A stretch of DNA of 64,000 bases. Source: Nonomuraea sediminis (lineage in GTDB: Bacteria > Actinomycetota > Actinomycetes > Streptosporangiales > Streptosporangiaceae). Position numbers and translations under genes: made by a program. The notes below the pieces were generated by a model. That model was not told where the DNA came from, ran no database searches, and worked only from the letters and a program-made list of their open reading frames with translations. Numbering within the stretch: the stretch's first letter is position 1; each line of letters starts with the position of its first letter. Location of the stretch: NCBI RefSeq assembly GCF_018531495.1, contig NZ_JAHDTI010000017.1, positions 1-64,000 on the forward strand, in the 5' to 3' direction. Below are positions 5,457 to 26,694 of the stretch, in pieces.

Positions 5457-5599
5457 ATGACGCCGGCGCCCTTGGTTGGGTCCTTCGCGGTGCATCGTCG
5501 CTCCAAGATCGGTGCGGAGCCAATCCTTGCTGCTGCCCTACTCCCGCGATACTCGCTGGAGGGTGGTCTCGTGCGTCAGTTAGGGTGAACAAAACGGAT

Positions 5600-5671
5600 C
5601 ATGGAGTAGATCAGCGGTAGATCACCCGGCTCGGGACCGGGAGGGCGCAGGTTCGAGTCCTGCCTCCATGT
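5600..5671 (+). tRNA. tRNA-like gene, anticodon CGG (Pro)
   Basis: A complete 72-nt cloverleaf can be drawn. The acceptor stem pairs CATGGAG with CTCCATG, the D arm is GATC-AGCGGTA-GATC, the anticodon stem is CCCGG/CCGGG with loop CTCGGGA, and the T arm is GCAGG-TTCGAGT-CCTGC. Odd points: the first pair is C1-G72, the discriminator base is U, CCA is not encoded, and the body is nearly identical to the next tRNA-like gene, which has a different anticodon. Normal tRNA-Pro identity elements are therefore doubtful. It may be a mobile-element tRNA or a tRNA-like RNA. Confidence 0.75.
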
Positions 5672-5692
5672 CGACGGCCTGACAAAGCCGGC

Positions 5693-5764
5693 CCTGAAGT
5701 AGATCAGCGGTAGATCACCCGGCTCTTACCCGGGAGGGCGCGAGTTCGATCCTCGCCTTCAGGT
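5693..5764 (+). tRNA. tRNA-like gene, anticodon CTT (Lys)
   Basis: A second 72-nt cloverleaf lies 21 nt after the first. The acceptor stem pairs CCTGAAG with CTTCAGG, the D arm and anticodon stem equal those of the first copy, the anticodon loop is CTCTTAC, and the T arm is GCGAG-TTCGATC-CTCGC. It again has C1-G72, a U discriminator and no encoded CCA. The pair looks like a duplication in which acceptor, anticodon and T stem diverged with compensatory changes, so the structure is under selection. The next coding start is 16 to 28 nt downstream. Confidence 0.75.
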
Positions 5765-5792
5765 CTTCACGAGTCACATCATGGGGGTCGTT

Positions 5793-8141
5793 GTGTCGGA
5801 CGAGCCGCGGTTCACGGCCTCGCCGGGGTACGCCTTCGGGCAGCTTCAGCGGGCGCTGGAAAAGGCCGTCTCCGAGGAAGACTCCCCGGCGCGAGAGCGG
5901 GCTGAAGCCAAGGTGGTGGCGTGGCGGGCGGTGCTGGACGGTATGCACACCGGCCAGCTGACGGTCGGCTCGCGCACGCCAGTCGCCGACACACCCGCGT
6001 GGGTGACGCTCGAAGTCGCGCACGGTGGATTCGCCACCGGCCGATATCTGGCCGAGGCGCCGCTTGGTGACGACGACGTCGCTCGCCTACGGGCGTTGCC
6101 GCAGAATGCGCCGGGGGAAACCAACCGCGAACGGCTCAACCTGTTCTCTCTCAGCGACACCGGCCAGGCAGAACTCTGCGCGGCTTTGGCATCGGGGAGC
6201 TATCGGATCGACGTTCCAGAGGATGCCGCCATGATGGTGGTCGCGTGGTTGCTCGATCGCGGGCACCATGCAGCGGCGCTCGATCTGGTGGTTCGCCTTC
6301 GGCCGTTGATGCACCGGTTACGGATGACTCCCCGGTTGGCGAAGGCCATCACACCATCCGCCGCGACAGTACGGCTCGCGCCGGTGGGAGAGATCAAGAC
6401 GGCCCTGCGCTCGGCCACGGTCAACTCGAAGATCGCGACGATGCTGGAGACGCTCCGGATCTGGCTGCCGCTGTATGACCGGTTGGTGGCGCTGTGGTGT
6501 GACACCGTCGATGAGGATCTCCCGAACCTGTCCGACACCGGGACCGTGGAAGGCGGGTGGCCGTGCCGAGTGTGGCCGAGTGACTGGACACAGCGGCGCG
6601 GCCAGTGGCTCGCCGACTATCGGCGAGCGCGCGAGCAGCACACACTGGCCTCCGGCCACACCCATCCCAAGAGCAACTTCGACCGGCTGCACCGGGCGCT
6701 GGAGGCCTGCACGCACGACAGCCGCACCCTCTCGAGCCGCGAGGTCGGCTGGATCCGCCGCGCGCTGGCCAACACGGTCAGCAGACACGGCGCTCCGGGC
6801 TTGGAGGAACGCGCTGCTCTCCGCAGTGCGCAGGCCGTAGTGGCGGCCCGGCCGACCCACGCCTCACTGGCCGCCGTCCTGGCAGCGCGACTGGACCGCT
6901 ATCCGGAGGACGGCGGCATCCCCGCGATCGAACCGCTCGCGGGAGAGACCACCGCGGACGAACTGCCGGAGGCGACCGGAGGCCATCCGATCCCGCCTCA
7001 TCTGCTCGCCAAGGCCACCCGGGCGTTGGAAGCGCCGGTCGACGAACTCGTGGCCTGCGGCGTGATCACCTCCGGAGAGGTGCTGGCCCAGGTTCTGCCA
7101 CAGATCACCGCGCACGTTCTCGCCGCGAACGTCGATGACGAGCAGCTTGCGGGACTCTACGCCCAGACCTACGGCGCGTTTCGGCGGCGCCGCAGTCTGC
7201 TGTTGCTCAACCTGGAACATCAGATCCGATTCGACGAACTGCCCTGGATCGGCGCGCTGCGCTCCTTCCACTCGCCTCGCCCCGATACCGCTCGTACCGC
7301 GCGGCGCACGTTGGAACAGACGACGATGCTGACGCTGAGCGCCTTTCCCCAGGCGATCCTGCCCAATCCGCTGGTCCGCGAGCTGGGCGCCCTGGCCAGG
7401 CAGGCTGATCTGCCGATGCCGCTGGTGGAGGAGGTGGCCGCCGACATCTTCATGGGCACGTTCACCGACAAATGGCGTGCGGCGGCCGAGATCACGAGCC
7501 GGACCATGGCGGGCACCTTGTATGCCCGCTACTACGACCTCCCTGATGCGGCCGCATGGGTGGCGCCATCGGAGCAGCGTGCCAGGCGTATCGGCAGGTG
7601 GGAGAAGCGAACCGCCGAAGATTTCGCCACCGCCTGCGCCGCACGCGCCAAAGAAGCCCAGACCGGACGCGCCAACAGCTACGTCGCGAGCAACGGCACC
7701 GTCCTGGAACAGAGCCAGATCCTGACCACCCACAACCTGGCCCTCCTCGTCGAGGCTCTCCACCTGCAGGATCGCCTGCGCGACCAGGGGCCCGACCTCG
7801 TCGACCGCACCTTTACGTGGATCGTGGCCCGCCAGGCCATGCGCATCTCGAATCACCGCGCCCGCCTGCAAATGATCAAGAATGTGGCGTACGCCTGGCG
7901 GCAAGCGATCTTCTATCTCAGCTTCTGCGACCAGCGCCAACAGCATGCCGCGGTGAACCGCCTACGCCAGCAGGTCGCTGATGCCGGCCTCAGCGACCGC
8001 TTCGGACCTGCTGTCGCGGGGCTCGCGCATGTCATCAACGGCGGGTACTTCGACAAAACCGGAACCGTCCGGGGCAGCCGCGGGCGGCGTTTTCTCGGCT
8101 GGACCACCGGCACGCACTGGTGCCTTCCCCTGAACGCATGA
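5793..8141 (+). CDS. Large hypothetical protein following the tRNA-like pair
   Basis: A 782-aa protein of unknown family. I prefer GTG at 5793 because a GGGGG run lies 6 nt upstream; ATG at 5781 is the alternative. It has no signal peptide or membrane segment. The N-terminal 100 residues include AWVTLEVAHGGFATG; the middle is alanine- and leucine-rich helix; the C-terminal third contains RLQMIKNVAYAWRQAIFYLSF, an arginine- and tryptophan-rich helical block that could bind nucleic acid. No Walker, nuclease or methyltransferase motif was found. The tRNA-like genes end directly before it, so they may share a transcript. A role in tRNA or translation biology is only an inference from this adjacency. 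Confidence 0.75.
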   Translation: MSDEPRFTASPGYAFGQLQRALEKAVSEEDSPARERAEAKVVAWRAVLDGMHTGQLTVGSRTPVADTPAWVTLEVAHGGFATGRYLAEAPLGDDDVARLRALPQNAPGETNRERLNLFSLSDTGQAELCAALASGSYRIDVPEDAAMMVVAWLLDRGHHAAALDLVVRLRPLMHRLRMTPRLAKAITPSAATVRLAPVGEIKTALRSATVNSKIATMLETLRIWLPLYDRLVALWCDTVDEDLPNLSDTGTVEGGWPCRVWPSDWTQRRGQWLADYRRAREQHTLASGHTHPKSNFDRLHRALEACTHDSRTLSSREVGWIRRALANTVSRHGAPGLEERAALRSAQAVVAARPTHASLAAVLAARLDRYPEDGGIPAIEPLAGETTADELPEATGGHPIPPHLLAKATRALEAPVDELVACGVITSGEVLAQVLPQITAHVLAANVDDEQLAGLYAQTYGAFRRRRSLLLLNLEHQIRFDELPWIGALRSFHSPRPDTARTARRTLEQTTMLTLSAFPQAILPNPLVRELGALARQADLPMPLVEEVAADIFMGTFTDKWRAAAEITSRTMAGTLYARYYDLPDAAAWVAPSEQRARRIGRWEKRTAEDFATACAARAKEAQTGRANSYVASNGTVLEQSQILTTHNLALLVEALHLQDRLRDQGPDLVDRTFTWIVARQAMRISNHRARLQMIKNVAYAWRQAIFYLSFCDQRQQHAAVNRLRQQVADAGLSDRFGPAVAGLAHVINGGYFDKTGTVRGSRGRRFLGWTTGTHWCLPLNA

Positions 8142-8603: not shown

Positions 8604-10163
8604 CTACTGGATGGGAACCTGGAGATCGCGGAAAGTGGCGATCTTGACCTTAAGAGACCTAGTGGCGTCGGGGAGGGCGAACAGACCCCAGAACTCACGG
8701 GTCTGGCCCGGGGCGAACTTCTCGGTGCTGATGCGTACGCCGGAGAGTCCGGTGCAGGCGCAGTAGTAGTCCGCGTCGTCGCCCGTCGGCACCTCCAGGC
8801 GGCCCGGCAGGTACTGGCGGTGGGCGGCGGTGTCGGTCAGCCGGACGTTGCTGGCGGCCTGGTACTTGTAGCTCTCCCAGTCCTGCGCGTGGTGCAGGTC
8901 GTTGTACGTGGTCTCGGCCGACCCCTCGTTGGTGACGGTGTACGTCAGGAGGCCGATCCCACCCGGCAGCCGTCGCAGGCCGGTGATCTCCATGGCGATC
9001 GGCTGGCCCTCGGCCTCGCCCGTGGCCTTGAGCTCGCCCGCCTCGGGCGAGAGCGTCTGCACGACGTCCCCGGCCGGATCTGCCTGCTTGGGCGTGGGCT
9101 TGGCGAAGGTGACGGTCACGCGGCGGTTGCGGCGCTTACCTTCGTCGGTGTCGTTGCTGTACAGGGGGCGGCGCGAGCCGTACCCGCGAGCCTGGAAGCG
9201 CACGCCGTCACGGGTCAGCAACGCCGTCAGGGCGCGCTGCACCGCCTGGGCGCGGCGCTGCGACAGCGGGTCGTTGATGGTGTCGTTGCCGGAGGAATCG
9301 GCGTGACCTTCCACCTTGACCACCGCGGCGGGCGATGCGTCGATGAGCTTGGCCGTACGGGCCAGCACTGCCTTGGCCCTGGGGGTGAGCGTGGCCTCGT
9401 TCACCGCGAACAGCACGTCGGAGGAGAGGTTGACCTGCAGGTCCTTGCCGTCGTCGGCGGTTTCCTCCGACTTGTCCAACGACTCGGAAGGCAGCACGAG
9501 GCGGCGAGCGACCGGGGTGACGGGCTCGGCGTCGGGATCGGGGAAGTCACCCGCGGGCGGTTCGTCACTGATGGGCACATTCAGCATGGGCGGGCCCACC
9601 GGGGTGACGACCGTGGTGGTGGAGGGATTTCCCGACGGAGCGGGCAGCACCGCGTACACGGTGATCGACCGGCCGGGCTCGACGAAGTAGCCGAGATCGT
9701 CGCGCTCCTGGTCGCTGCACAGGCAGGGTGAGCCGTTCGGCTTGTACGGCAGGAGCCACACGCGGGCCGCCGCGTCCAGGACGCCGATACCCGACGCCCA
9801 CAGGATCCGGCCGAGCGGGCGGGTGTCGTCGCCTATCTCGCCGGTCCACGGCAGGTCCTTGGTGCCGGTGTTGGACAGGCGGATCTGGACGACCAGATGT
9901 TTGCCCTTGACCCGGTTGAGCCCGACGACCTCGAGCTTGAGGTTCTCGGTCATGGTGCTACGGGTCTCGGCCAGGGCCGGGCGGGTGTCCTCGGCCGGCG
10001 CCGTGGTGGCCGGATCGCTGGAGGCGGGTGCGCTGGGGGTCGAGGCGCTGGAGGATGGCGAGGGCTCGGACGACGGGGGTAAGGCCTGCCTCTTCGGCAG
10101 CACCCCACATCCGGTCGCTGCGATGGTGAGGGCGGCTGCCAGGGCCAGGATCCGGTTGGGCAT
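8604..10163 (-). CDS. OmpA/MotB-domain lipoprotein
   Basis: A 519-aa secreted protein. A signal peptide from ATG 10163 ends in the lipobox ATGC, giving a lipidated cysteine near residue 19, and is followed by a Pro/Ser/Ala-rich linker. The OmpA C-terminal peptidoglycan-binding domain spans about residues 240-355, with SDVLFAVNEATL, VEGHADSSG, LSQRRAQAV and RRNRRV. A further beta-rich domain of about 150 residues follows. The family anchors the envelope to peptidoglycan. It is monocistronic. ATG 10202 is an alternative start that would bury the signal sequence. Confidence 0.85.
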   Translation of the reverse strand: MPNRILALAAALTIAATGCGVLPKRQALPPSSEPSPSSSASTPSAPASSDPATTAPAEDTRPALAETRSTMTENLKLEVVGLNRVKGKHLVVQIRLSNTGTKDLPWTGEIGDDTRPLGRILWASGIGVLDAAARVWLLPYKPNGSPCLCSDQERDDLGYFVEPGRSITVYAVLPAPSGNPSTTTVVTPVGPPMLNVPISDEPPAGDFPDPDAEPVTPVARRLVLPSESLDKSEETADDGKDLQVNLSSDVLFAVNEATLTPRAKAVLARTAKLIDASPAAVVKVEGHADSSGNDTINDPLSQRRAQAVQRALTALLTRDGVRFQARGYGSRRPLYSNDTDEGKRRNRRVTVTFAKPTPKQADPAGDVVQTLSPEAGELKATGEAEGQPIAMEITGLRRLPGGIGLLTYTVTNEGSAETTYNDLHHAQDWESYKYQAASNVRLTDTAAHRQYLPGRLEVPTGDDADYYCACTGLSGVRISTEKFAPGQTREFWGLFALPDATRSLKVKIATFRDLQVPIQ

Positions 10164-10201
10164 GGCAGAGATTGCGCCAGGCCCGAAATGCGGGAAGACC
10201 A

Positions 10202-10480
10202 TCAGCCGCACGCACCGGCGATGACGGCGGTGGCTTCGACCTCCACCAGTTGGTCGATCAGCGACGCGCCCGCTCCCTCCAGCGCCGTCACGAGATTGCA
10301 CATCATCTGGTGGGTCTGGCCCGCGTAGTCGCCGACCGCGACAGTCTCGCCGTCGAGATCGAGCGGGCAGGCGCCCGCCACCCAGATGGAGCGCACGGGC
10401 GCGTCAGCGATCGCGGCGTAGGCATAATCCACCTTCTGCGTAAGCCGATCGTTGCGGATCAATCTGACACCGTTACTCAA
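10202..10480 (-). pseudogene. RidA/YjgF-family protein with internal deletion
   Basis: The 92-aa frame has the N-terminal half of RidA (imine/enamine deaminase fold) up to LVTALEGAGASL and then jumps straight to the last strand, QLVEVEATAVI. In normal RidA proteins of about 125 to 130 aa some 35 residues lie between these blocks, including the trimer-interface and substrate-binding arginine region. The reading frame is kept, and a good site (GAGGAG, 6 nt before TTG 10480) remains, so a small protein could still be made, but deaminase activity is unlikely. It lies beside a decayed MFS gene. Confidence 0.75.
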
Positions 10481-10536
10481 GGCAGGCTCCTCAGGGCTAT
10501 GACCTCACACAACTTCTAGCGCGAAGACCATTTTGT

Positions 10537-10575
10537 AAGCATATGCATATAATCTATATGTGCATATTGTTGTTT
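10537..10575. promoter_or_regulatory. AT-rich dyad operator between decayed divergent genes
   Basis: An AT-rich island contains overlapping palindromes built from GCATATGCATATA and TATATGTGCATAT, followed by TTGTTTGTCAACAA. It separates the RidA remnant from the plus-strand MFS remnant and looks like the former shared promoter/operator of a divergent pair. Confidence 0.5.
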
Positions 10576-10591
10576 GTCAACAAGTACCTAC

Positions 10592-10678
10592 AGCGGGGTG
10601 CTCTCGCTGGCTGCGATCCTGCCCTTCATCCACGGTCTCGAGGAGATCGCCAAGTACGGCGGGCCCGGATACCAGTGA
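10592..10678 (+). pseudogene. MFS (DHA2-type) transporter scrap
   Basis: Twenty-eight codons read SGVLSLAAILPFIHGLEEIA and end at TGA 10676-10678. This resembles the central transmembrane segment of drug:H+ antiporter-2 (EmrB/QacA-like) transporters, where LSLAAILPxIYGLKEIA is typical. Nothing before or after in any frame continues the protein. It is a decayed remnant. Confidence 0.55.
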
Positions 10679-10706
10679 GTGGGGTTCCCGGCCCACTCCC
10701 CTGAGC

Positions 10707-11819
10707 TCAGGCTCCCCGCGAGTCGACCCAGCCGGCCTGGACAATCGTGACGGAGTTCCAGACGGTGCCCGGCTCGAAGCCCTGCTGGAAACCGCCGGGT
10801 TTGACCACGACGCTCTCCCGCGCCAGAGCCGCGCCGCTGTCCTCGTCGATGATCAACTGATCCTGCAGCACACCCTTGTCGCCCATCTGGGTCAGCGAAT
10901 CGGTCTCGATGGCGACAGCCGTACCAGATCGGCCCTGAGCGTCGGTGACCTCCCCCGCAGTCGTCACCGAAGGCAGGTCGGCCAGCATACGGAAGGCCGC
11001 GGCGCGGACCTTGGCGCTGACCGGCATGTCGGTGATCAGCCCGGCGGTGGTCTGGAACAGCCAGGCGTCCTGTCCCATGGACCGGTCGGACTCGGTGTCG
11101 TGGCCCTTGTAGTACTGCAGCAACCACTTCTTCAGCGCGGACGGGGCATCGGGCAGGTTCCGCAGGTCGGCCATGGTGACGCTGCGGCCCAGCCAGAAGA
11201 TCTCCTCCCCCGCGAGATGGCCCGAGGAGGGCTTGCCTGCCTCGGTGGGCAGGGTGACCTTCCCCTTGCCGGGCACCTCCACTTCGATCTTCTGTGGCGC
11301 TCCCACTTCCTCCCACTTCGCGCGGTCGGCATCGGAGGCCGGCTTCACACCGAGCGACTGGGTACGGCTCCACTGACCGCGTGCGGAGACCCAGCTCTGG
11401 ATGCGGGTCCCCTGGGTCACGAAATATCCGGTAGCGGCCTTGGTCAGGGTTTGCTGCACGGATTCGATGTGCCAGTAGGCCCCCGAGCTCGGCGGCTGCT
11501 TCTCCGCCGAGGTCGCAGCGACCAGGAGCACCTGCTGGGCAGAAAGCTCGACCGGCGCATGCTTGACGGTGGTGGAGGAGGCCGAGGGCGCGCGGGGATT
11601 CACCCCGCCGCCCAACGTGCCGCTGACCACCGCAACAGCGGTTACGGCGGCCACGGCTCCGGCCAGACCCAGTACCCACACAGGGCGACGGGTCCTCCTG
11701 CGCACCGGCACGCCCTGGGACATGGCGTAAGCCAGCTCAGCCTGCCTGGTGCGCTCGTCCACAGACAAGTCGGCCAAGTGGGCGGGCTGGGCGGCCCGAA
11801 GTTCGTCGATCGGGTTCAA
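10707..11819 (-). CDS. CU044_5270-family membrane-anchored protein, partner of the upstream sigma factor
   Basis: A 370-aa protein with a cytoplasmic N-terminus of about 45 residues, one transmembrane helix (VWVLGLAGAVAAVTAVAVV, near 47-66) and a large extracytoplasmic domain. This architecture and the sequence match the actinobacterial CU044_5270 group, usually encoded just after an ECF sigma factor; these are thought to act as anti-sigma or signal-sensing partners. The start is TTG at 11819 with GGGAG 5 nt upstream; it overlaps the sigma stop codon (TTGA), indicating translational coupling. An anti-sigma role is an inference from the operon. Confidence 0.85.
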   Translation of the reverse strand: MNPIDELRAAQPAHLADLSVDERTRQAELAYAMSQGVPVRRRTRRPVWVLGLAGAVAAVTAVAVVSGTLGGGVNPRAPSASSTTVKHAPVELSAQQVLLVAATSAEKQPPSSGAYWHIESVQQTLTKAATGYFVTQGTRIQSWVSARGQWSRTQSLGVKPASDADRAKWEEVGAPQKIEVEVPGKGKVTLPTEAGKPSSGHLAGEEIFWLGRSVTMADLRNLPDAPSALKKWLLQYYKGHDTESDRSMGQDAWLFQTTAGLITDMPVSAKVRAAAFRMLADLPSVTTAGEVTDAQGRSGTAVAIETDSLTQMGDKGVLQDQLIIDEDSGAALARESVVVKPGGFQQGFEPGTVWNSVTIVQAGWVDSRGA

Positions 11820-12334
11820 GACGGCTCCCTGGACAGGTCGAACCGGGACATGGCGGCAGCGACGGGCTCCATCTCCTGCTGGAGTCGCTTGCGCGCCCGG
11901 TGCAGGCGTACTCGGAAGGCAGGCACGGAACAGCCGACGACCCCGGCCGCATCGCGCGGGGAAAGCCCCTGCCAGGCGACCAGCATGAGCAGCTCCCGCT
12001 CGTCCTGGGTGAGCCTGGCCATAGCCTTCAGGACTCCCAGCCGCTCGGCCACCTGCTCGGCGACGTCGCCCGACACCCACTCGCGCAACTCCTGGTTGAG
12101 CCCCTCGCGGCGGGCCTCCTCCCTGATGTTCTCGCGGAGGACGTTCCTGGCGATCCCCAGCAGGTACGGCAGCGCGTTCGCGGGCATCTCGTGGAACTTG
12201 CGCCAGGCGATGGCGAACGTCTCGCTGACCACCTCGTCCGCCACCTGCCGCCCCGCACGGCTGACCACGTAGGCCCAGACCCGCTGTCGGTGTTGGTCGT
12301 ACATGGTGGTGAACCGCTGTCGATCGTGCGTCAC
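11816..12334 (-). CDS. ECF RNA polymerase sigma factor
   Basis: A 172-aa sigma-70 family protein consisting of region 2 (VWAYVVSRAGRQVADEVVSETFAIAWRK split over residues 20-46, with the DEVVSETF core-binding helix) and region 4 (ERELLMLVAWQGLSPRDAAGVVGCS, helix-turn-helix, near 115-150). There is no region 1 or 3, as expected for ECF factors. It is the first gene of a two-gene operon with the CU044_5270 protein and probably directs transcription of its own operon, although no clear -35/-10 pair could be fixed by eye. Confidence 0.93.
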   Translation of the reverse strand: MTHDRQRFTTMYDQHRQRVWAYVVSRAGRQVADEVVSETFAIAWRKFHEMPANALPYLLGIARNVLRENIREEARREGLNQELREWVSGDVAEQVAERLGVLKAMARLTQDERELLMLVAWQGLSPRDAAGVVGCSVPAFRVRLHRARKRLQQEMEPVAAAMSRFDLSREPS

Positions 12335-12452
12335 CGCCTCAGCTCCTCATGTCCCGGATACGGACTGACAATAGGAAGTGGTTGGAGGCGACCATAAATT
12401 ACAGACGAGTTCTTGATCGCGGGCGGCGTGAGCCGCACATGACGACTCTTTC

Positions 12453-13165
12453 GTGTCCTCGCAGGTCCTGGCGATGCGCTCGAAGATTGTGCTGGGGTGC
12501 GCGGATGGCAAGGACAACCAGCAGATCCCCGCGGAGTTGCGGGGTGCACCCGGACACGGTCTCCAAATGGCGTTCCCGGTTCCTGCGATTGCGGCTGGAG
12601 GGGTCGACGAGCCCCGGCCGGGCCGGCCGCCATCGATCACACGGACCAGGTCGAGGAGGTGGTGGTGGCCACGCTGGAGGAGACGCCCAGGAATGCCACG
12701 CACTGGTCGCGGGCTTCGATGGCCAAGCGCAGCGGCTTGTCCAAGTCGACGATTGGGCGGATCTGGCGCGATTCGAGTTCAAGCCGCACCGGGCCGACAC
12801 CTTCAAGCTGTCGGCCGACCGTTGTTCATCGAGAAGGTCGTCGATGTCGTGGGCCTGTATCACAACCCGCCAGAGCGGGCGGTGGTGCTGTACGTGGATG
12901 AGAAGTCCCAGATCCAAAGCGCTGGATCGCTCCCAGCCGGTGTTACCGATGATGCCCGGGATGCCCGAACGGCGCATGCATGACTATGTCCGAACGGGAG
13001 CACCAGCCTGTTCGCCGCCTTCAACATCGAAGACGGCACCGTCATCGGCCAGCTGCACCGCCATCACCGCGCCGCCGAGTTCAGAAAGTTCCTGGCCACG
13101 ATCGACAAGACGGTCCCGGCCGCGTTGGACATCCATCTGATCTGCGACAACTACGGCACCCACAG
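12453..13165 (+). pseudogene. IS630-family transposase, multiply frameshifted
   Basis: Successive pieces of one IS630 transposase appear in different plus-strand frames: the N-terminal helix-turn-helix ([15 protein letters not shown], then [13 protein letters not shown] in another frame), the catalytic region [12 protein letters not shown] with the first Asp-Glu, and then FNIEDGTVIGQLH and HLICDNYGTH with the second aspartate. At least four frame changes are needed and the C-terminus with the last catalytic residue is lost, so the element is dead. It lies between the ECF operon promoter and the 3' end of drmB. Confidence 0.85.
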
Positions 13166-13474
13166 GATGCGGTCATGCTGCCGCGCCGCTTCCGTGCTCG
13201 GGCCTTGGGCCTGCGCTTCGGACCGGCCTGCCATCGAGCAGCTCATGCGGTCCGCTCCTCCAGTGCTGCACGAGCACAAAGGACTGGGTTGCCCATCAGA
13301 AATACTCGGCACGTTAGACCGCCGCAACGCCTTCGATTTCTGGCGCTCATTGCCGATCAACCCCTCGCGCCTGCTGGCAAGACCGGACCCGCCCCCGAGG
13401 GTTCGGTAATTCCTCCGCGTCGTACCCACGTTTCCAAGCGTGCCCAGCCCATTCACACCCCTTGTGCGCGGCTC
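13166..13474. other. Gap between IS630 remnant and drmB
   Basis: About 300 bases with no recognisable gene, possibly unalignable remainder of the insertion sequence. The end of the defence operon starts at 13475. Confidence 0.4.
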
Positions 13475-15289
13475 TCACTCCGATCGTGCTGTAACGGTTG
13501 CCTGGCGTACTTCTGCCAGAACACCGTCCCAAAAACCGACGACGTTTCCTCCTCCGAGCACCAGCTGGCGGTCGAGCAGCCTGTTGCCGGTCTCGCACGA
13601 GGTCTCGCTCACAAGCGAGCAACCATGGCATGCAGACAAATTGAGTTGGGACGAACCTTGCCTGTCTCTTTCGATGCACACCGGGTCGTTCGAGCAGACA
13701 TCCGCGTCGTCGAGCGCTGAGACGAGCAGCGGGATCAGCTTCCCAGGATGTCCCAGCCGAGCTAGTCCTCCAAGGGTTCCCTGAGCATCTCCTGCCGCGG
13801 TGTAGATCAGAATCCCGGCAGTCTTGTCCTTCCGGTCGGAGTTCGCATAGATCCGTTCCCGCAGCGACGCTGATGCATATCCGCTGGCGAACGCCAGCCT
13901 GCGGATGAGCAGGTGCGACAACGTGTGCAGAGCGATGTAGCGCGGCTCCGGAACGTCGAGCCGGTCCGCCCATGGCGTGCCCGCGCGGCGCTTCAGGAGG
14001 ATGCCTGCCCGCGCCTGGACGCCCGGCTGCGCCTCCCATTGTGCGAGTTTGTCCTCATCGAACCTCAGGAAGATTCCCTCGCCGAACATTTCCATCGCCG
14101 GATAGGTGGGGAACCCTTTCGGTCCGAGATCAGCAGTGATCAGATCGGCCTCCGCGCTGTGGCGCCTGAAGCCCCGCAAGGCAGTCACCTCGCGTACCCG
14201 GTGCACCTGTCCGACACCAGCGATCCGGCTGACGAGACTCTCCGGTCCCGAGGTTGTGTCCCGGCTCCATCCGTCGACGACGAAGTCCCCACCGGTACGG
14301 TCTCGTCCACCCTCGAGCTTCTTCAAGAAAGCGGCCCACTCCCCATCCTTGAGGTCGAGAAGCACGTCGTCAGCCGAGGCCTCGTCTCCTGCCGCGACCT
14401 CGCGCACGGTCTCCGGAGACACGCCTAGCTCGCCGGCTATCCATCCCGCAATCACCTCCGCCTGAGGTCCGCCGTTGTCCGCCATGAGCTTCTCGAAGAA
14501 GACATGACCACGGATCTTGTCGGCGATCTCCGCAGACTGCGGGCGTTCTTCGGGGATGTCGAGCGCGGAGATCCGATCGGCGATGTAGTTCCCTGTCGCC
14601 CCCCGCTGGACCGCTACAAGACGATGGTTGCACGGCTTCTTCACGGAACTTTCCGGCTCCCACGGCTGCCGACCGACACAGTGGAGGCCGTCGCGGTGCA
14701 GGGTATCCCTCGTCACGAGCTCCGCCAGAGAACGGCTGTGCCCACATCCGTAGCACTTGACCCGGAGGGAGGCCAGGCCCTCGCCCTGACCGGACACCCT
14801 CTCGAACCGGAGCTCCTTATAGGCCTTACAGAAGCGAACAGCTTCGTCGAGGGTCGCACCGTGGCCCCTGTGCGCCCACTTGAACCACGGGACGTCCTGG
14901 GCGTGACTGCCCTGTTCGCAGATCGCGATGTAGCGCATCGGGACGAGGAACCCTCCGCACTCACAGGTGTTGCTCCACTTACCTTTTTTCTTCCCTGTCA
15001 GCTTGGAGAGCTTTGAGCACCTCTCGCAGAACCGCCAGGCGGGAAAGCGCCAGTAGAGCAGTGCCGGTGTGTCCTTCCCCGCATGGCCTGCATGAGTCGG
15101 CGGCTGCCTGAGAACTCCCGCGCCGAGCCTGGCGAGGAGTCGCTCACAGCTGATCTCATGGGCGTACTTCTTGTCCCACCACGAGGTGTCCGGCGCGATC
15201 AACGACTCACCTCGGATGTCGACGATCGCTCCAACACCGAAGGGTGTGATCGTCTCCGACAACCGCAGGTCATGCCTGATCTTCTCCAC
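13475..15289 (-). CDS. drmB: DrmB, DUF1998-domain DISARM protein
   Basis: A 604-aa protein matching DrmB in size, position after drmA and features. The N-terminus ETITPFGVGAIVDIRGES is typical. Cysteine pairs near 88-116 (CERC, CECGG) and CYGCGH near 179 suggest zinc sites. The DUF1998 region contains LHTLSHLLIRRLA (near 470) and ends in the cysteine-rich ACHGCSLVSETSCE. In DISARM, DrmA and DrmB form a complex that loads on and restricts unmodified phage DNA. Start GTG 15289 has AGGAGG 6 nt upstream and overlaps the end of drmA by 20 bases. Last gene of the four-gene operon. Confidence 0.88.
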   Translation of the reverse strand: MEKIRHDLRLSETITPFGVGAIVDIRGESLIAPDTSWWDKKYAHEISCERLLARLGAGVLRQPPTHAGHAGKDTPALLYWRFPAWRFCERCSKLSKLTGKKKGKWSNTCECGGFLVPMRYIAICEQGSHAQDVPWFKWAHRGHGATLDEAVRFCKAYKELRFERVSGQGEGLASLRVKCYGCGHSRSLAELVTRDTLHRDGLHCVGRQPWEPESSVKKPCNHRLVAVQRGATGNYIADRISALDIPEERPQSAEIADKIRGHVFFEKLMADNGGPQAEVIAGWIAGELGVSPETVREVAAGDEASADDVLLDLKDGEWAAFLKKLEGGRDRTGGDFVVDGWSRDTTSGPESLVSRIAGVGQVHRVREVTALRGFRRHSAEADLITADLGPKGFPTYPAMEMFGEGIFLRFDEDKLAQWEAQPGVQARAGILLKRRAGTPWADRLDVPEPRYIALHTLSHLLIRRLAFASGYASASLRERIYANSDRKDKTAGILIYTAAGDAQGTLGGLARLGHPGKLIPLLVSALDDADVCSNDPVCIERDRQGSSQLNLSACHGCSLVSETSCETGNRLLDRQLVLGGGNVVGFWDGVLAEVRQATVTARSE

Positions 15290-18200
15290 GGTGCACCTCC
15301 TCCTGAGGTTCCTGGACGTTCACGGCCACGTTCGGTTCGACCGACCTCATCGAGTCGCCGACGAGCCAGCCTTCCGCGAGCTGTCCGAATCTCTTGACCA
15401 GCGCTTTTTCGATCTTGGCTGACCGCTCGTAGCCCAGCGTCTCGTCCGCTTCGCGGGCCGCACTCGCTCGACGGTCCCAGTCGCGCAGAAGGCTCCAGGC
15501 CGCCTGTCGCGTCTCCTCCGCCTCGATGTCGTCGGCCCGAGCCACATATCCGAGGAAGCGGTCGACAATATCCGCCATAGCATCACTGAGTGCCATGTCA
15601 TCGAGGTCGAACCGTCCTGCTGTGTCATTGTCGGCCAGCGGGGCGAACGATTGCCGCACCAGCGCCACGAGCGCCCCGGCCAGCGAGCGCTCCCGCGAGG
15701 CCAACGACCAGGGAGTCACGCTCGTCGGTTCGACGCTGCGGTAGAGCGCCTCGTGGTATGCACGGAAGGTCTCGAAGTGCGACCGGTCCCGCGCACGACT
15801 CGACCTGAAGAGCGTCACCACGATGCCGTTGGTGTCGCCACGTCCGACACGGCTCGTCGCCTGGATGTATTCCGCGGTCGTCTTCGGCTGCCCGACCATG
15901 AGCATCAGGGCGAGCCTGGGGATGTCGATGCCGACGGAGAGCATGTTCGACGACAGGACGACGTCGATTGCTTCCGAGGACTCGTCCACACGGACCCGAA
16001 GCGCTCGAAGGTCGCTCGGCAGTTGCTCCGCTCCCCTTCGGCTCGTCAGCTCCAGCACACGCTCCGCCCTGACCATTCGCGACGGCAGGCCCAGACGTTC
16101 CGCGCGGGGCTCGAGTCGGGCCCGCACGTCGTCGACGACGAGCGTTCCGGTACGTCCGAGTTCCCGGAGAGAGTTGTGGTACATGACCAGCGTCCAGTAG
16201 GCGTCTTTGGGTACGACGGTGTCGCCGCGGGCGGAGAGGACCTCGGGTATCTCGATGAGCGGGGTGACCGCGGAGATGACGGCCGAGGGCTGGGACACCG
16301 ACTGAGGCATGAGCCCGATGTAGAGTCGCCCTTCCTCGTTCGTGACAGGCCGAGAGAAGAAAGTCCGGTCGTCGTCGAGCCCGGACGGCGGGTAGTGCGC
16401 GACCTTGCGCCCGTACAGCCCCTGCACCTGTTCGTCCGAAGCACGGATGGTCGCGGTGGAGGCGACGATCTTAGGACTCGTACCCATCCGGCTCAGCAGG
16501 AGCTGAATCACAGCGTCGAACACCGCGACGGTGGTGCCCAGCGGCCCGGACAGAAGATGGAGCTCGTCCTGGATGAGCATGGAGGGCTGCTTGAACGTGG
16601 TTCCGAGGCCCAAGAGCCTTCCCGCCGTGGGCTTGAACTGGAGGCGGGCGAACTTGTCGACGGTCGCCAGAAGGATCGTGGGCGGATCGTCGTACAGGAC
16701 CTCGTCGACGACGGCGAGCGGCAGTTCGTCGCTGAATCGACACGAGGTGTCAACGCAGTGCAGCACGATGTCCTTGCCGAGCAGGCGCATGCCGTAATCC
16801 TTCGACTGCGTGCTCTTGGACTTGGGCACCAACGGTGTCAGGCACCAGGGGCAGCTCTCCACCTGGAACTGATTGGCCTCTTCAGGTCGTGCCGCCTTCA
16901 ACAACCGGTCCAGCGCCGCTTTCGCCTCCGAGCGGCTGTTGGGAGTGACATCCTTCCCCACCCACAGGCCGATCGTGAAGGGCGTCATACCCTTCACCCG
17001 AGGATCTGTGCCACGCAGCAACTCCATGGCACAGATCAGCGCTGCCGCTCGCTGGAACTGCTGGGACGTCAGGAGCCGGAGTGTGTATCTGGTGATCACG
17101 GCGGTGCCGCCGCCCGCCGTGCCGTGAACCAGTCGCCGGCGAAAGATCTCAATCGCCGCGAGACCTAGGTACGCCTCGGTCTTGCCACCGCCAGTCGGGA
17201 ACCAGATGAGATCGACGAGGTCACGATCACCATGCTTCTCGTCGACTGTGGAGGCGAGCGAGACGAGCAGGAACCCGAGTTGGAAAGGCCTCCAACGTGG
17301 TTCCTCCGAACCGGCCTCAGGACCACCACGGTTGATCGAGGACTGACACATCTGCAGACGCATCGCCGCCATGCCCAGAGCGAATGCCGTACGAAGGCGT
17401 CCCTGAGATGGATCACTAAGCAGCGCCACGCCTGCCCGCATCCGCTCGACCGCGTCCTGGGAGCGGCCCGCAATTCGCCGAGCGACCCCGGCCTCGTCAC
17501 CGAACCCTTCAGCCCGCCATGTCTGTTCGTCCACCCACTCGGCGAACGCATCGGCGAACGCATCCAGAGACCGGAGCACCGGCTCCGGGTCCGAATCCAA
17601 TCTCATGAGATGTGCGAGCTCCAAGGACTCCGCTTCAGGAGTGCCCTTCGCAAAGCCCGTGGTCTCGACAGCGGGGACGACGAAGGCCGGTACCGGATCG
17701 AGGAAGACCTCAGTACAGCGACCGTCCGTGAAATCCCAATCGGCGGCCATCCCGTGACCGACCGCGTAGACCTTGCGGTTGCGGTACCTGAGCCGGAGTT
17801 CGGCCGTCTCTTGATCCCCGCCGGACAAACGGGTGGTGTCATACTCCATGAACTGCGCACCCGCGGCTGGACTGACTGACAGCCCTACCTGGAAGAGCAT
17901 CTGAGGGATGTCGAGACGATCGTCTCCGGTGGACTCAGACATCACCCTGACATGAACCGTGACCAGGGAGTTCCCTCTGAAGTCGCGCCAGCGCGACCCG
18001 ATCTCCACGGGCACGTCGCCCACTGTGAGAAGCTCCGGACGCCAGCCTCTCGTAAGCAAGATCTTGCCCGAGGCGAACGGCCTACGACGCCACTTAGGCG
18101 GCCCGTCAACCGACTCCTGCGAGTACGTACCGCACGAGAATTTCGCCTCCACTGAGGCGCCGTCGGTGACGAAGGAGATCGCGACGGACGAAGGGCGCCA

Positions 18201-18446
18201 GTCCTCGGCCAACGGAACCGCGGCACCGTCCTCCTCGAGATCCCCCTCCGGTACGTCCGCCGAGACCTCGTCCTCGGGCTCGGCCTGAGGCCTGCTATCG
18301 GCCTCCGGAGGGGCGGGGAACAACATCCCGACGGCGTACTGCCGATGCGGAAGGTTGCGGGTCACTTCTTCCTGCCCCCCGTCCGGCCCGACGTAGGTGT
18401 CCCGGAGGTGCTGCAGTGCGGCACTCTGTGCCTCGGTGAGGTTCAC
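15270..18446 (-). CDS. drmA: DrmA, DISARM SF2-type helicase
   Basis: A 1058-aa helicase. Walker A FPTGGGKTEAYL lies near residue 417, the DExx box IQDELHLL near 624, the SAT motif (VASTATIRA) follows, and the C-terminal helicase block has SVGIDIPRLALM and QATSRVGRGD near 867. Residues 1-400 form the long N-terminal region typical of DrmA. A CPWC...C pattern near 530 may bind zinc. Size and order (drmA then drmB) match DISARM. The start codon is GTG 18446, overlapping the previous stop in a GTGA junction, so translation is coupled. Function inferred from the family: DNA translocation and phage DNA recognition. Confidence 0.9.
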   Translation of the reverse strand: MNLTEAQSAALQHLRDTYVGPDGGQEEVTRNLPHRQYAVGMLFPAPPEADSRPQAEPEDEVSADVPEGDLEEDGAAVPLAEDWRPSSVAISFVTDGASVEAKFSCGTYSQESVDGPPKWRRRPFASGKILLTRGWRPELLTVGDVPVEIGSRWRDFRGNSLVTVHVRVMSESTGDDRLDIPQMLFQVGLSVSPAAGAQFMEYDTTRLSGGDQETAELRLRYRNRKVYAVGHGMAADWDFTDGRCTEVFLDPVPAFVVPAVETTGFAKGTPEAESLELAHLMRLDSDPEPVLRSLDAFADAFAEWVDEQTWRAEGFGDEAGVARRIAGRSQDAVERMRAGVALLSDPSQGRLRTAFALGMAAMRLQMCQSSINRGGPEAGSEEPRWRPFQLGFLLVSLASTVDEKHGDRDLVDLIWFPTGGGKTEAYLGLAAIEIFRRRLVHGTAGGGTAVITRYTLRLLTSQQFQRAAALICAMELLRGTDPRVKGMTPFTIGLWVGKDVTPNSRSEAKAALDRLLKAARPEEANQFQVESCPWCLTPLVPKSKSTQSKDYGMRLLGKDIVLHCVDTSCRFSDELPLAVVDEVLYDDPPTILLATVDKFARLQFKPTAGRLLGLGTTFKQPSMLIQDELHLLSGPLGTTVAVFDAVIQLLLSRMGTSPKIVASTATIRASDEQVQGLYGRKVAHYPPSGLDDDRTFFSRPVTNEEGRLYIGLMPQSVSQPSAVISAVTPLIEIPEVLSARGDTVVPKDAYWTLVMYHNSLRELGRTGTLVVDDVRARLEPRAERLGLPSRMVRAERVLELTSRRGAEQLPSDLRALRVRVDESSEAIDVVLSSNMLSVGIDIPRLALMLMVGQPKTTAEYIQATSRVGRGDTNGIVVTLFRSSRARDRSHFETFRAYHEALYRSVEPTSVTPWSLASRERSLAGALVALVRQSFAPLADNDTAGRFDLDDMALSDAMADIVDRFLGYVARADDIEAEETRQAAWSLLRDWDRRASAAREADETLGYERSAKIEKALVKRFGQLAEGWLVGDSMRSVEPNVAVNVQEPQEEVHRGEDQA

Positions 18447-19960
18447 TTCCCGACCTGCTTCCGGACGAGTTCCTGGAGCCGCTGCTTGTCGTTCTTGGAG
18501 GCAACGACATGCAGCGTGACCCGTGGTCTGGTGACGGCGACGTAGAACCCGGCGAGCCCGTGCTCGTCATACACCTCGGGCAGGTCGCAGACGATCACGT
18601 GCTCCGCCTCCAGCCCCTTCGCAAAGCGTGGGCTGGTCACGGTGAAACCTGCGGCACTCCGAACGGGAGCGGCGTCGGACATGGCTCTGATGATCCAGAT
18701 GCTTTCACGACGGGCGCCGTCGTCGACGAGCTCACGTGCCACGCTCTCCGCGGCGGCTACATCGGCCTCCGCGTCGGCCCATCTCCACTGCACTCGCTCA
18801 CCATTGACGATTCCAGGATCTCCGATGTCAGCCCCCAGGTACTCCTGGACGACGTGGACGATCGCCCTGGTGTTGCGGACATTGCGGTTGAGGTCGAGGA
18901 GCAACGCCTCGTCTGACACAAGTTCGTAGACATCCTGGTCGAAGGAGCCGTCCACATGCGCCTGGTTGTTGGGATCGAGAAACATCCGCCAGCGTCCTTT
19001 CGCGCGTCCTCCCTTGATGACGGCGTCCAGCGCGTCCATCCCGTCGGCGTTCATGAGGTCTTGCGCCTCGTCGACGAGAACGGCGTCGTATTTCTTCTCT
19101 CCGTCGAGTTCGGAGAAGGGGCGTAGGTCGATCGCACGGCCTGTGATGCGTGGTGAGAAGAAGCCGACCAATGCCGGCGAGTGGAAGGTGATCAGGACGG
19201 ATCTACCCTCGCCGGTCTCTTGTTTCGCGGCCTCGGCCAACACGAGGGACTTCCCGGTACCCGCCCCTCCGATCACCATCATGCGCTGGTTGCGTGCGAG
19301 CGCGGACAGCACACGCGCCTGGTCGTCCGTCGCGCGGTTCTGCTCCTCGATCACGGCCCCGCGCTGAGCGTCGATCACCGGCACCCGTGTGAACTCGCCG
19401 AAAAGACGCGCTCGCAAGAGGTCGGGACGCGCGATCTTCACTCCATGCGGCGCCGTTCTCGTTCCACCGACAACGGTCTTGAACGCTGCGGTCATGGCCG
19501 CGACGGTCATCTCCTCCTTGGCCCACCAGTGGCTGCCTTTCCACTCGACGGTCGGAGGAGGGGCATCTATGTCAGGCGTGATGACGACTGCCTCACTTGC
19601 GTACCAACCGATGCCTTCTTCGGTGAAGATCGCTCGTAATGCGTGCATGGCCGACTGGGCCTGCCGCATCGGGGATTCACGAAGCCTCTTCCAATCGCCG
19701 CGTCGGTCGACGGTGTACCAGAGGCCGTCGTGCTTGCTCACTCCCCCGCCCTTGACCTCGACCAGGATGACGACGTTCTCCCACAGGACGACGAAATCCG
19801 CCTCCGCCTGTTGCTTGGTCTCGTGGGTTCGGAGCGAGACCGAGTGGAACGCGACGGCTCCTTCTGGTCCCTCGATCGCACTCAGGACACGCGCGACACG
19901 GCGCTCGGCACCGCTCGTGGCCGTCGCCTCGATGTCTGCGAGGTCCGGAACAAGAATCAT
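18443..19960 (-). CDS. NERD nuclease-related domain fused to UvrD-like helicase
   Basis: A 505-aa protein. The N-terminal NERD domain (about 1-120) carries the PD-(D/E)XK-like set in AEADFVVLWENVVILVEVKG: aspartate, then E-V-K. A P-loop GGAGTGKS lies near residue 235, the Walker B VDEAQD near 300, and C-terminal superfamily I elements (LEAEHVIVCDLPEV, then FYVAVTRPR) near 460-485. NERD-helicases combine DNA end processing with unwinding. The start is ATG 19960, sharing ATGA with the stop of the upstream gene; the frame is open further upstream but that part lies inside the preceding gene. Not a standard DISARM component. Confidence 0.88.
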   Translation of the reverse strand: MILVPDLADIEATATSGAERRVARVLSAIEGPEGAVAFHSVSLRTHETKQQAEADFVVLWENVVILVEVKGGGVSKHDGLWYTVDRRGDWKRLRESPMRQAQSAMHALRAIFTEEGIGWYASEAVVITPDIDAPPPTVEWKGSHWWAKEEMTVAAMTAAFKTVVGGTRTAPHGVKIARPDLLRARLFGEFTRVPVIDAQRGAVIEEQNRATDDQARVLSALARNQRMMVIGGAGTGKSLVLAEAAKQETGEGRSVLITFHSPALVGFFSPRITGRAIDLRPFSELDGEKKYDAVLVDEAQDLMNADGMDALDAVIKGGRAKGRWRMFLDPNNQAHVDGSFDQDVYELVSDEALLLDLNRNVRNTRAIVHVVQEYLGADIGDPGIVNGERVQWRWADAEADVAAAESVARELVDDGARRESIWIIRAMSDAAPVRSAAGFTVTSPRFAKGLEAEHVIVCDLPEVYDEHGLAGFYVAVTRPRVTLHVVASKNDKQRLQELVRKQVGK

Positions 19961-22900
19961 GCGCCGTGCTCCCGCCAGAGCTGTTCGTACTCCCGATATC
20001 CGAGGAAGTCGTTGACCGCACCGAAGTTGTCGGCGATATCCACGATCAGGCACTCCTCCTTGCCGCCGTTCTCCGGGCCGCGAAGACCACGCCCTGCCAT
20101 CTGGATGTAAGCGCTCGGGCTGAACGTCGGGCGCGCGATGTAAAGAGCACGGACGCCAGGAGCGTCGAATCCCTGGATCAACAGGTCGCAGTTCGCGAGC
20201 ACACGGATCTCTCCCGACTTGAACTGCTCGATGACCTCCCGACGCTCCTGCCGACCGGTCTGGCCGCTCACCGCGGCGGCCTCGACCTTGCGATAACGCA
20301 GGGTCGCCGCGAGTACCTGTGCTGACAGCACGTTCGGGGTGAACACGAGGATCGGCCATTCCGGATCCTGCTGCATGATGTGGTCCACGAGGACCGCCAT
20401 ACGTGCTTGGTCTCGACCGATGCGATCGAGAACCTGTGGTTCGAGCTTGCGCTGATTCCGAACGTTGGCCAACTCGCCGGCGTTCAGAACGACGTCAATC
20501 CCCGGAAGCACTTCGTGCCGGACGCGAGCGAGCACACCCATCCGGGACAGTTTCCGGTAGGCCTCGCCCCCTTCAAAGGCCTTGATCATGCGACGTCCGA
20601 AGCGCGCAGCCAACTCCTTCGTCTGAGTGTCGTTGCCCACCGAACCCTTGAACGGCGTCGCGGAGAGGCCGACGAGAGGCCGCTCCCAACTGCGCCCGTC
20701 CACACCGAGCCATCTGAGGATTTTCGTGTATCTCGGAGAGCTACCCGCGCGATGGGCTTCGTCGACGATCACCACGGACGCGTTGCTCAACCACGCATAT
20801 TCCGGGCGGTCGATGATCTTGTCCAGCTTCGCATCTGTGGCGACGACGACGCCGAACTGCGTGTCAGGCTCATGCACCGAATTGTTCTCCCAAAGCCTGC
20901 CGATCGTCAGTGGTCGTTCGTCAGCCAGGCCGCGCCACACCATGCTGAAGGTCTGCACCGCCTGTTCACAGAGCTCGGCGGACTGCGCGATCCAGAGCAC
21001 CGGTCCGCTCAGGGCACCGTCGATGAACAGCCGCAGCACCGTCTCTGTCGCCACGCGAGTCTTCCCTGCGCCGGTGGGGAGCTCGACCATGGCCTTGAGC
21101 GCGTTGCCGTTCGGCTCCTTAAGGATCAGGACGTCCCTCAGACGGGCGCTCAGGTCTTGCTGGAAATCGTGTAGGGGGTTCAGCTTGATGGCTCCGGGAA
21201 CGACGAACTCGTCGTCCTGACGCTCGTTCCGTTGACCGGCGTACTCGGCCCCGAACCCCATCTTCCGAAGCCAAGTGATCGTCGGCGCCCCGCCAGCCCA
21301 CGTCGTGGGGACGTCCGTATATCCCTCGCCGCGGAACTGGTCGGCGAGCAATCGAATCGAATCGCTTCTGTAAACGGTGAGAAAGAGTTCCGCGACAGAG
21401 GTCGCGTCGTTCACCAGGCCTTGTCTCTCGAGTGCCGACCAGAGGCCCTTGGGCAACGCCTCCCGGAGAGTGTCATCCCCGAAGAACACCTCCAGACGGT
21501 CCACATCGGTGACGGCCGCCTTGGCGGCTTGGCGCTGCTCCTCGAGACGCTGGTCCAGCCCTGCCTTGAGTACTTCGCTCAGCTGGGCGTTGTCCAATCC
21601 CAGGCCGAACGCCTTGTTGACGACATCCAGGACTTCCCGCTCTCCGAGGTCTGCCCGTACGGTCAACGCATATCCGTCGAGGTACCTGTCGAGCGACTGG
21701 TCCTCCACGCCATCCTCGGTGGTCACGCGTTTGGCTATGTGCACCGCCCTCGCCACCGTGGCGTTCATGACCTTGTCCGCCACGTAGGTCGAGCGAAGTC
21801 CCGTGTACAGGTCGATGATGCGTTCACCGTCCTGCTGCCCCTCGATCAACATGGAGAAGGAGAAACTGTCCTCGAACCTACGGCATCCTACGACCTCGAC
21901 CAGAGTGGAGACCTCGTCACTGTTCGCCCTGAGATAAGGCTTCTGCCGAGACGCCAGGAAGCGCTGCTCCTCGTCGGTGGTCGCGATGTAGACCGTGTCC
22001 GGCCGCCGAGATTCGACGCCCTGCCCGAGACGGGCTGGGATGCGTGACGGATGTCCTTGCGAGAAGACGAGTCTGCTCGCGGCAATGACGAACGCCGTCA
22101 AGGTGTGGTCCTTGACGCGTGGTGGGAAGATCTCCGCCTCGAGAGCTTCCCGCAGTACGTCCGACGGCACCTGAGCCAGCTCGCGGGGCAGGTTCAGTCT
22201 GTGCTCGACGTGTCGGGGACCTCGGTACAGCGGAAGCAGGTCCTCGTACTCGACCAGGGTTGCCGACACGATCTTCTGCGGAGATCTGCGGCCCCTGGTC
22301 GAAGGAAGCACGCCTGCTCGGTCAACCGCCCATCGAAGCGGTGAGGTCACCCGATAGATCTGACGGGAATCGAGGTCCTCAACGGTCCAGGGTTCATCCT
22401 CGAACCCCAACAGCTGCGTCGTCCATCTCTCTCGCATCTGATCGGGCGCGGCTGCGTCCCGCAGCATGATGAGGACCGAGAACGGACCAGGGCCCGCGTT
22501 CTCGACGAACTCGATGCGCTCGATCTCCCGTTCGCCCGGCCCTCGCCGGGTGTTGAGAAAGTCCCTCACCCACCGGCAGTAGTCCCCGAAGAAGACCTCG
22601 TCCTCGGTGGGGTACTCCTTCACGGGGTCGTGGACGACGCCGACTGCGTGAGCCACCTGTGGGACGCATCGGGATCGGTCCAGCAGGCGCCCGCCGAACT
22701 CATCGCCGAGGCCGTCCATGTCCACGACCTGGCTGGGCCATGACCACTTACCGTCACGGGTCGGTACCCTGATGTGTCCTGATGTGTCCTTCGACAGCAT
22801 CCTCACGGCTTCTGACGGCGAAACGTTGAGGACCGCGTCCCAGAACCTGGTCAGGGCCTCGTCGTCAGAGTTGACAGAGAGCTTGTTGAGACGTGCTCGC

Positions 22901-26464: not shown

Positions 26465-26694
26465 AGGCGGAGTCTAGGGGTTTTATCAGAAGCTCTGTAG
26501 ACCTGATCCCCACGGTCTCGAACAGACAATTCACCATTCAGTGGAGCATGCCTTGTCCGCTGGGAGCCGGCCGTTCGTCGCTCTTCCCTCAGCTTCCAAG
26601 GCGAGGCCTCGGGGCGGGCGCCGTCCCATGGATCGAAGCGTGATGCCTCAGATCGATGTGGCTGTATGGAAGTGCTGCACACCGCCGCCGACGT

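Follow-up and report, generated by a model that had tools for sequence, protein, structure and literature searches.

The stretch of DNA analysed here, referred to as the window, is a 64 kb segment of Nonomuraea sediminis, and the coordinates of RNAs and genes are given in window positions. Close to its beginning, two transfer RNA (tRNA)-like RNAs lie upstream of a gene for a large protein, here called the partner protein:

5600..5672, plus strand: tRNA-like RNA 1, with anticodon loop CTCGGGA, C1-G72, U73 and C74, identified by ARAGORN, Rfam RF00005, folding and RNA model R1
5693..5765, plus strand: tRNA-like RNA 2, with anticodon loop CTCTTAC, C1-G72, U73 and C74, identified by the same four means
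5793..8141, plus strand: partner protein of 782 amino acids, mostly helical, starting at GTG 5793 (alternative start ATG 5781, giving 786 amino acids)

The initial annotation had described two near-identical tRNA-like genes upstream of a 782-amino-acid open reading frame, and ARAGORN, RF00005 and the cloverleaf folds agree on this point. RNA 1 and RNA 2 scored 66.5 and 65.6 bits against RF00005 (cut-off 29) and 83.3 and 77.4 bits with RNA model R1, and the minimum-energy fold of each is a full cloverleaf, the fold energy by itself being unremarkable (z about -1). ARAGORN and RF00005 found no third tRNA within the 64 kb. The two RNAs are 79% identical across 84 nucleotides (nt), with identical D arm and D loop, and they differ through compensated changes in the acceptor stems (CATGGAG/CTCCATG and CCTGAAG/CTTCAGG) and in the T stems; both keep T54-T55 and have C74 without a full CCA. 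The shared D arm, the different anticodons, the compensated stems, C1-G72 and the U discriminator are thus all readable in the sequence as had been claimed, and so is the distance of 16-28 nt between RNA 2 and the gene, because RNA 2 ends at 5765 and the start codon is ATG 5781 or GTG 5793. The argument that these RNAs are unfit for tRNA-Pro survived only in part: four of the four tRNA-Pro genes in the fetched stretches of this genome also have C1-G72, which removes that half of it, but they carry A73, so the mismatch at U73 stands. An ordinary tRNA-Pro(CGG) and two tRNA-Lys(CTT) were found in the genome, and the window RNAs are therefore not required for those codons.

The linkage between RNA and gene was followed through 82 homologous loci in Actinomycetota, with repeat loci counted once (L019 equals L033; repeats among L080-L109) and the contig-edge fragment G062 left out. 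The gene retains its 5' end in 79 of them, the other three being truncated (L159, L168) or placed at a contig edge (L165), and all 79 have one to three tRNA-like RNAs upstream on the same strand, one RNA being degenerate. The first 58 loci all carry RNA and contribute 82 copies (one RNA in 40 loci, two in 12 and three in 6), and 14 of 14 further loci carry it as well. Ten more loci were picked for a broken-looking gene or a nearby contig end; six of these have the RNA, one has a decayed RNA, and the remaining three are those with a gene lacking its 5' end. Decayed genes with intact RNA exist (L160, L162, L106), and no intact gene without RNA was seen among the examined loci. The search for tRNA-like genes before the gene in other genomes, which the initial annotation had proposed, thus gave a strongly positive answer. 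In the locus with the decayed RNA (L161:4712-5200), the gene has a stop and an internal deletion, U33 is changed and the T loop is one base short, so that the locus can serve as a natural control for loop bases that are otherwise fixed.

A copy was accepted if at least 19 of 21 pairs could form and if C1, G7, G72 and the D-arm motif were present, so that the 99.9% pairing and the C1-G72 found in 82/82 copies are partly built in by these filters. They dropped 13 of 95 raw matches, none of which has a tRNA-like D-arm motif or is the RNA adjoining the gene. Sixteen genomes, ten with the gene and six of the same genus without it, were searched with a covariance model of 66 RNAs. All 16 matches of at least 77 bits sit at the gene in the ten gene-bearing genomes, the best match away from the gene reached 71.1 bits, and the six gene-less genomes gave no match at 77 bits; copies unlinked to the gene, which would have spoken against the association, were thus not seen in these relatives. 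The 77-bit line misses some true copies, because one genome (G164) has a degenerate third copy at the gene that reaches 61.1 bits, a score that lies among those of ordinary tRNAs. Across 20 control regions, each of 10 kb and from the same genomes, ARAGORN found one tRNA and one transfer-messenger RNA (tmRNA) in total. The 79/79 linkage and these control regions together rule out ordinary tRNAs that adjoin the gene by chance, and the RNAs are inherited along with the gene.

The shape of the RNAs was examined in an alignment of 66 of the 75 distinct RNAs, nine irregular ones being left out. Thirteen of the 21 pairs have changed on both sides, in 134 cells, as compared to 6.4 pairs and 33 cells in shuffles and to at most 3 pairs and 8 cells when the partner was slid by up to three columns. 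The elbow and tertiary contacts, which lie outside the stems and are not built in by the pairing rule, are also kept: U8-A14 is present in 66/66 and G19-C56 in 65/66, while positions 18 and 55 are G18-U55 in 6 and A18-G55 in 60, and positions 54 and 58 are U54-A58 in 10 and G54-G58 in 56, and neither contact is mixed in any RNA. Positions 15 and 48 are G15-C48 in 52, A15-U48 in 6 and other combinations in 8. These switches follow clades and represent few independent events. Judged by these compensating changes, the RNAs are under selection for a tRNA-like L shape. T54-T55 was kept in 7/82 copies and lost in 75/82, and the ordinary tRNAs of the window's genome have GTTCRA in 70/70; C74 is present in 82/82 copies, as in those ordinary tRNAs.

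The anticodon loop behaves differently from this body. It has seven bases in 75/82 copies, and C32-U33 is present in all 75. Base 34 is a pyrimidine in 72 of the 75, with more G34 among the 14 further loci, and bases 35 and 36 use all four letters, giving 19 triplets in total, of which CGG is the commonest (16/75). Base 37 tracks base 36, with G36 followed by G37 in 41/41, A36 by G37 in 12/13, U36 by A37 in 7/8 and C36 by A or U. Turnover was measured in 18 independent sister pairs, four of 22 having been dropped for loops of unequal length or other than seven bases. The anticodon differs at 25/54 sites and the rest of the RNA body at 31/1026 (Fisher P about 1e-20). Fourfold synonymous sites differ at 1910/7442 (26%), and the comparison of the anticodon with them gives a Fisher P of about 0.0014, a value that needs care since the triplet sites are not independent and high-GC fourfold sites are constrained. 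No region of the protein was more divergent in pairs that differ in anticodon than in those that share it. The triplet thus turns over fast while the body and C32-U33 stay fixed, and the protein has no matching fast-changing patch.

Copying of cellular anticodon loops was considered and is not supported: some loops equal ordinary ones (CTCATAA, CTCTCAA, CTTGGGA), but 19 of the 75 seven-base loops carry triplets present on no tRNA found in the window's genome (TCG in 11, TCA in 6 and CTA in 2). Mimicry of particular cellular tRNAs is, on these loop sequences, not favoured. In loci with several copies all triplets are different in 15/18, about as random draws would give. Three loci with three RNAs each (L063, L065 and L068) hold the loop CTCATAA in the first copy and change the triplet in copies two and three, and the copies within loci of this type may have separate roles.

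Searches of Pfam and NCBIfam (E up to 1) and of PADLOC and PHROGs (E up to 5) gave no match to the partner protein, nor did a 28-sequence profile of it match any PDB sequence. Two AlphaFold2 models, each built from only four sequences, are poor (mean predicted local distance difference test scores of 50.3 and 61.6). With Foldseek, at E up to 0.001, neither model matched the PDB and the second also had no viral match, and the top VIA-align Z scores of 7.0 and 5.5 fall inside the range of common helical arrangements. Homologues were present in 57/297 genomes sampled from the window's order, in 27/394 sampled from the class and in 4/396 sampled from the phylum, of which one belongs to another class. 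The distribution is patchy even within one genus, with the gene in 25/65 genomes. Six plasmid records (Streptomyces, Embleya, Curtobacterium) carry a homologue, and phage records and viral contigs contained none. A pattern scan gave three named genomes, those of Nocardia jejuensis, a Pseudonocardia and Nonomuraea antri. The window protein shares 53-57% identity with the homologues from Nocardia and Pseudonocardia and 40-43% with those aligned from its own family, and horizontal transfer is therefore indicated. The Nonomuraea antri protein is 74% identical to it; that homologue (L033:4675-7815, 1047 amino acids) contains in-frame low-complexity inserts of more than 100 residues that are absent in other homologues.

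Two further elements of the window concern the expression of the RNAs and the gene:

5581..5586, plus strand: TAGGGT, a candidate -10 element of a promoter, with 13 nt between it and RNA 1
5783..5787, plus strand: possible Shine-Dalgarno (SD) stretch GGGGG before GTG 5793

A TANNNT motif ends 4-16 nt, usually 9-10 nt, before C1 of the first RNA in 45/58 loci, as compared to a mean of 3.7 and a maximum of 9 in 500 shuffled runs, and it precedes later RNA copies in only 4/24. Transcription is therefore likely to begin no more than a few bases from the first RNA. The start codon of the gene lies 2-4 nt behind the last RNA in 51/58 loci, a count that leaves out L031, where the nearby ATG is out of frame with the gene; the window is not among the 51. 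Anti-SD pairing of -5 kcal/mol or better was found in 0/48 loci classed as abutting versus 46/120 neighbour genes, taken at the first start codon. In the window, the 14 nt before GTG 5793 hold a purine-rich stretch with an anti-SD duplex energy of -7.9 kcal/mol. Processing of the RNA from the leader of the gene, as the initial annotation had suggested, is plausible in view of the -10-like motif upstream and the start codon 2-4 nt after the RNA.

The genes around the module are not constant, and no neighbour family was found in more than 8/30 loci. Beside the gene in the window, positions 8604-27570 form a defence island by PADLOC and Pfam models, with ZorB/OmpA-like, DrmB, DrmA, NERD-UvrD-like and TmtA-like proteins and type II methyl-directed restriction proteins. 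Around 20 other loci, restriction-modification models matched at least 2-3 of 120 neighbour proteins, the listing for the neighbours covering 25 of 49 families, and 0/119 control proteins from 20 control regions; the mad3 model hit, with the same listing, at least 2 neighbour proteins and 4 control proteins, and other PADLOC models match both sets. Enrichment of defence islands near other loci was therefore set aside as a signal too weak to use. We infer from its patchy presence, its movement between orders, its occurrence on plasmids, the lack of steady neighbours, its frequent decay and the defence island that it borders in the window that the module probably takes part in a genetic conflict. 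It may serve in defence or as a toxin-antitoxin pair. Elsewhere in the same genome (C11:404800-405900; L114), ARAGORN and Rfam found a divergent second-copy tRNA cluster with several low scores, which lies away from the usual tRNA genes and resembles the tRNA arrays of mobile elements.

We favour, at a probability of roughly 45%, the reading that the locus forms an RNA-protein module which is self-contained and moves horizontally, and whose protein would hold the constant RNA body and leave the changeable anticodon exposed. A single transcript would begin at or just before the first RNA, carry one to three RNAs and end with the mRNA of the protein. Excision of the RNA by tRNA-processing nucleases would leave a leaderless mRNA, so that protein output would be tied to RNA maturation. 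The RNA body and the protein form a fixed pair while the anticodon is the free variable, hence the protein would grip the body, presumably at the acceptor stem, the elbow and the T arm, and the anticodon loop would face something else. This third party may differ between strains, as in genetic conflict, and could be a phage, a plasmid or a toxin. In that case the RNA would give the protein an interchangeable part for recognition or gating, in a manner similar to the gating of Ro60 by Y RNAs.

Several points weigh against this proposal. The module is known here from sequence alone. The clade of the window has a gap of 26-169 nt between RNA and start codon and an SD-like site in 3/4 loci, so not every locus would have a leaderless mRNA. 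Lack of constraint explains the turnover of the anticodon nearly as well as diversifying selection does, because the high-GC fourfold sites used as the yardstick are themselves constrained. The poor protein models match no fold, and RNA binding by the protein is thus without structural support. The defence context is clear in the window and weak around 20 other loci.

Two alternatives appear unlikely, to much the same degree. In the first, the tRNA shape is a processing signal only, a target of RNase P and RNase Z that yields a leaderless mRNA, the excised RNA having no role and its anticodon drifting. The abutting start codons without SD, the promoter motif just upstream and the invariant C74 all fit this explanation, but the loci of the window's clade keep one or two RNAs despite their long gap and SD sites, and RNA and protein therefore stay linked even where a shared start site cannot explain it. 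Nor would a mere signal call for up to three RNAs per locus, for keeping C32, U33 and the coupling of base 37 to base 36, or for elbow contacts kept through compensating change.

The second takes the protein for a toxin that the RNA silences by binding, on the model of type III toxin-antitoxin systems such as ToxIN. In those systems RNA repeats precede the toxin gene and a terminator sets the excess of RNA. The loci studied here resemble them in the order of one to three RNA units before the protein gene, in a possibly shared transcript, in patchy spread with plasmid copies, and in that every intact gene seen has RNA, whereas intact RNA also occurs beside decayed genes. They differ in having a cloverleaf instead of pseudoknot repeats and a far larger protein, about four times the size of ToxN-like toxins, and the gap of 2-4 nt in 51/58 loci is too small for a terminator that would set an excess of RNA. 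The protein matches no toxin in Pfam or PADLOC, including those of the ToxN/AbiF/TenpN type, for which the comparison is one of sequence since the predicted folds are uncertain, and no change in the protein accompanies the change of anticodon.

The system nearest in kind is Ro60/Rsr with YrlA, in which an RNA with a tRNA-like part is encoded beside the protein gene. The partner protein differs in having no TROVE match (Pfam up to E = 1); hhalign gave a probability of 0.2% against TROVE, on a 3-sequence TROVE profile, and kinship with Ro60 is rejected at the level of sequence. A gene-bearing genome can also hold a separate TROVE gene, as is seen in the genome of the window. The RNAs are plain cloverleafs without a Y stem; with the YrlA covariance model the score was 23 bits versus a cut-off of 69, and nine homologous loci gave no match at E up to 1. 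Upstream of the TROVE (rsr) gene, 7/8 related loci (L151-L158) carry a YrlA-like RNA of 30-51 bits, below the Rfam cut-off of 69, and by sequence these are a divergent actinobacterial set of Y RNAs. In a third alternative, the RNAs are bait for anticodon nucleases: enzymes of phages or rivals would cut the loop, and the protein would respond to the cut RNA or be released by it. The loop starts like a real anticodon loop and its triplet changes fast, and a passage of PMC7790460 proposes that YrlA may act as a competitive inhibitor of an anticodon nuclease. The bait explanation is nevertheless improbable, since 19/75 loops carry anticodons absent from the tRNAs found in the genome, two of these triplets being stop anticodons, and YrlA itself is described as uncut in what PMC7790460 says of it.

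Use as special decoding tRNAs for the translation of some message can be practically dismissed: the cloverleaf, the tRNA-like loop and the L-shape contacts would suit it, but T54-T55 is lost in most copies, the triplets vary among close relatives and extend to TCA and CTA, and the genome already has ordinary tRNAs for the Pro and Lys codons. Compared to canonical tRNAs, the RNAs have the cloverleaf with its tertiary contacts and lack a regular T54-T55-C56 and an anticodon fixed within a lineage. They share with tRNA-Pro the C1-G72 pair, the G-T-A-G-C turn from base 7 found in the genome's tRNA-Pro(CGG), and CGG as the commonest triplet, and they differ from it in U73 or G73 instead of A73, in mostly altered D and T loops and in the variable anticodon. 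Ordinary tRNA-Met is 0.67 and 0.64 identical to the two window RNAs and tRNA-Pro(CGG) 0.63 and 0.53, so that descent from tRNA-Pro is only a suggestion, tRNA-Met being as close or closer. A tmRNA, which would hold an mRNA-like reading frame for a tag, was rejected as well, because ARAGORN calls tRNA and not tmRNA in the window and the loci. Among tRNA-shaped mRNA leaders, the ThrRS operator places a tRNA-like fold ahead of the start codon. The yjdF riboswitch also has a tRNA-like fold in the leader, according to a passage of PMC9142559. The RNAs described here resemble both leaders in their position before a start codon, and differ in that their cloverleaf is complete, occurs as one to three tandem copies and is kept also away from the start codon. 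A literature search that covered few subscription journals or preprints found no description of this RNA-protein family.

ARAGORN labels the module RNAs as tRNA-Pro, tRNA-SeC, tRNA-Pyl and others, and annotation pipelines would read them as tRNAs with odd anticodons, so that a gene-linked RNA family would be missed. It is conceivable, though we hold it only tentatively, that the module represents an undescribed class of immune or competition modules, in which a tRNA-derived RNA would use an interchangeable, fast-evolving loop as its specificity element and processing would yield both a guide-like RNA and a leaderless mRNA. If the favoured reading of an RNA-protein module is true, a tRNA gene has been turned into the partner RNA of one protein and its anticodon, released from the genetic code, changes at about the rate of synonymous sites or faster. 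The question raised for the bench is what the exposed anticodon loop touches. The results suggest that soil bacteria have an RNA-protein system that has gone unrecognised.

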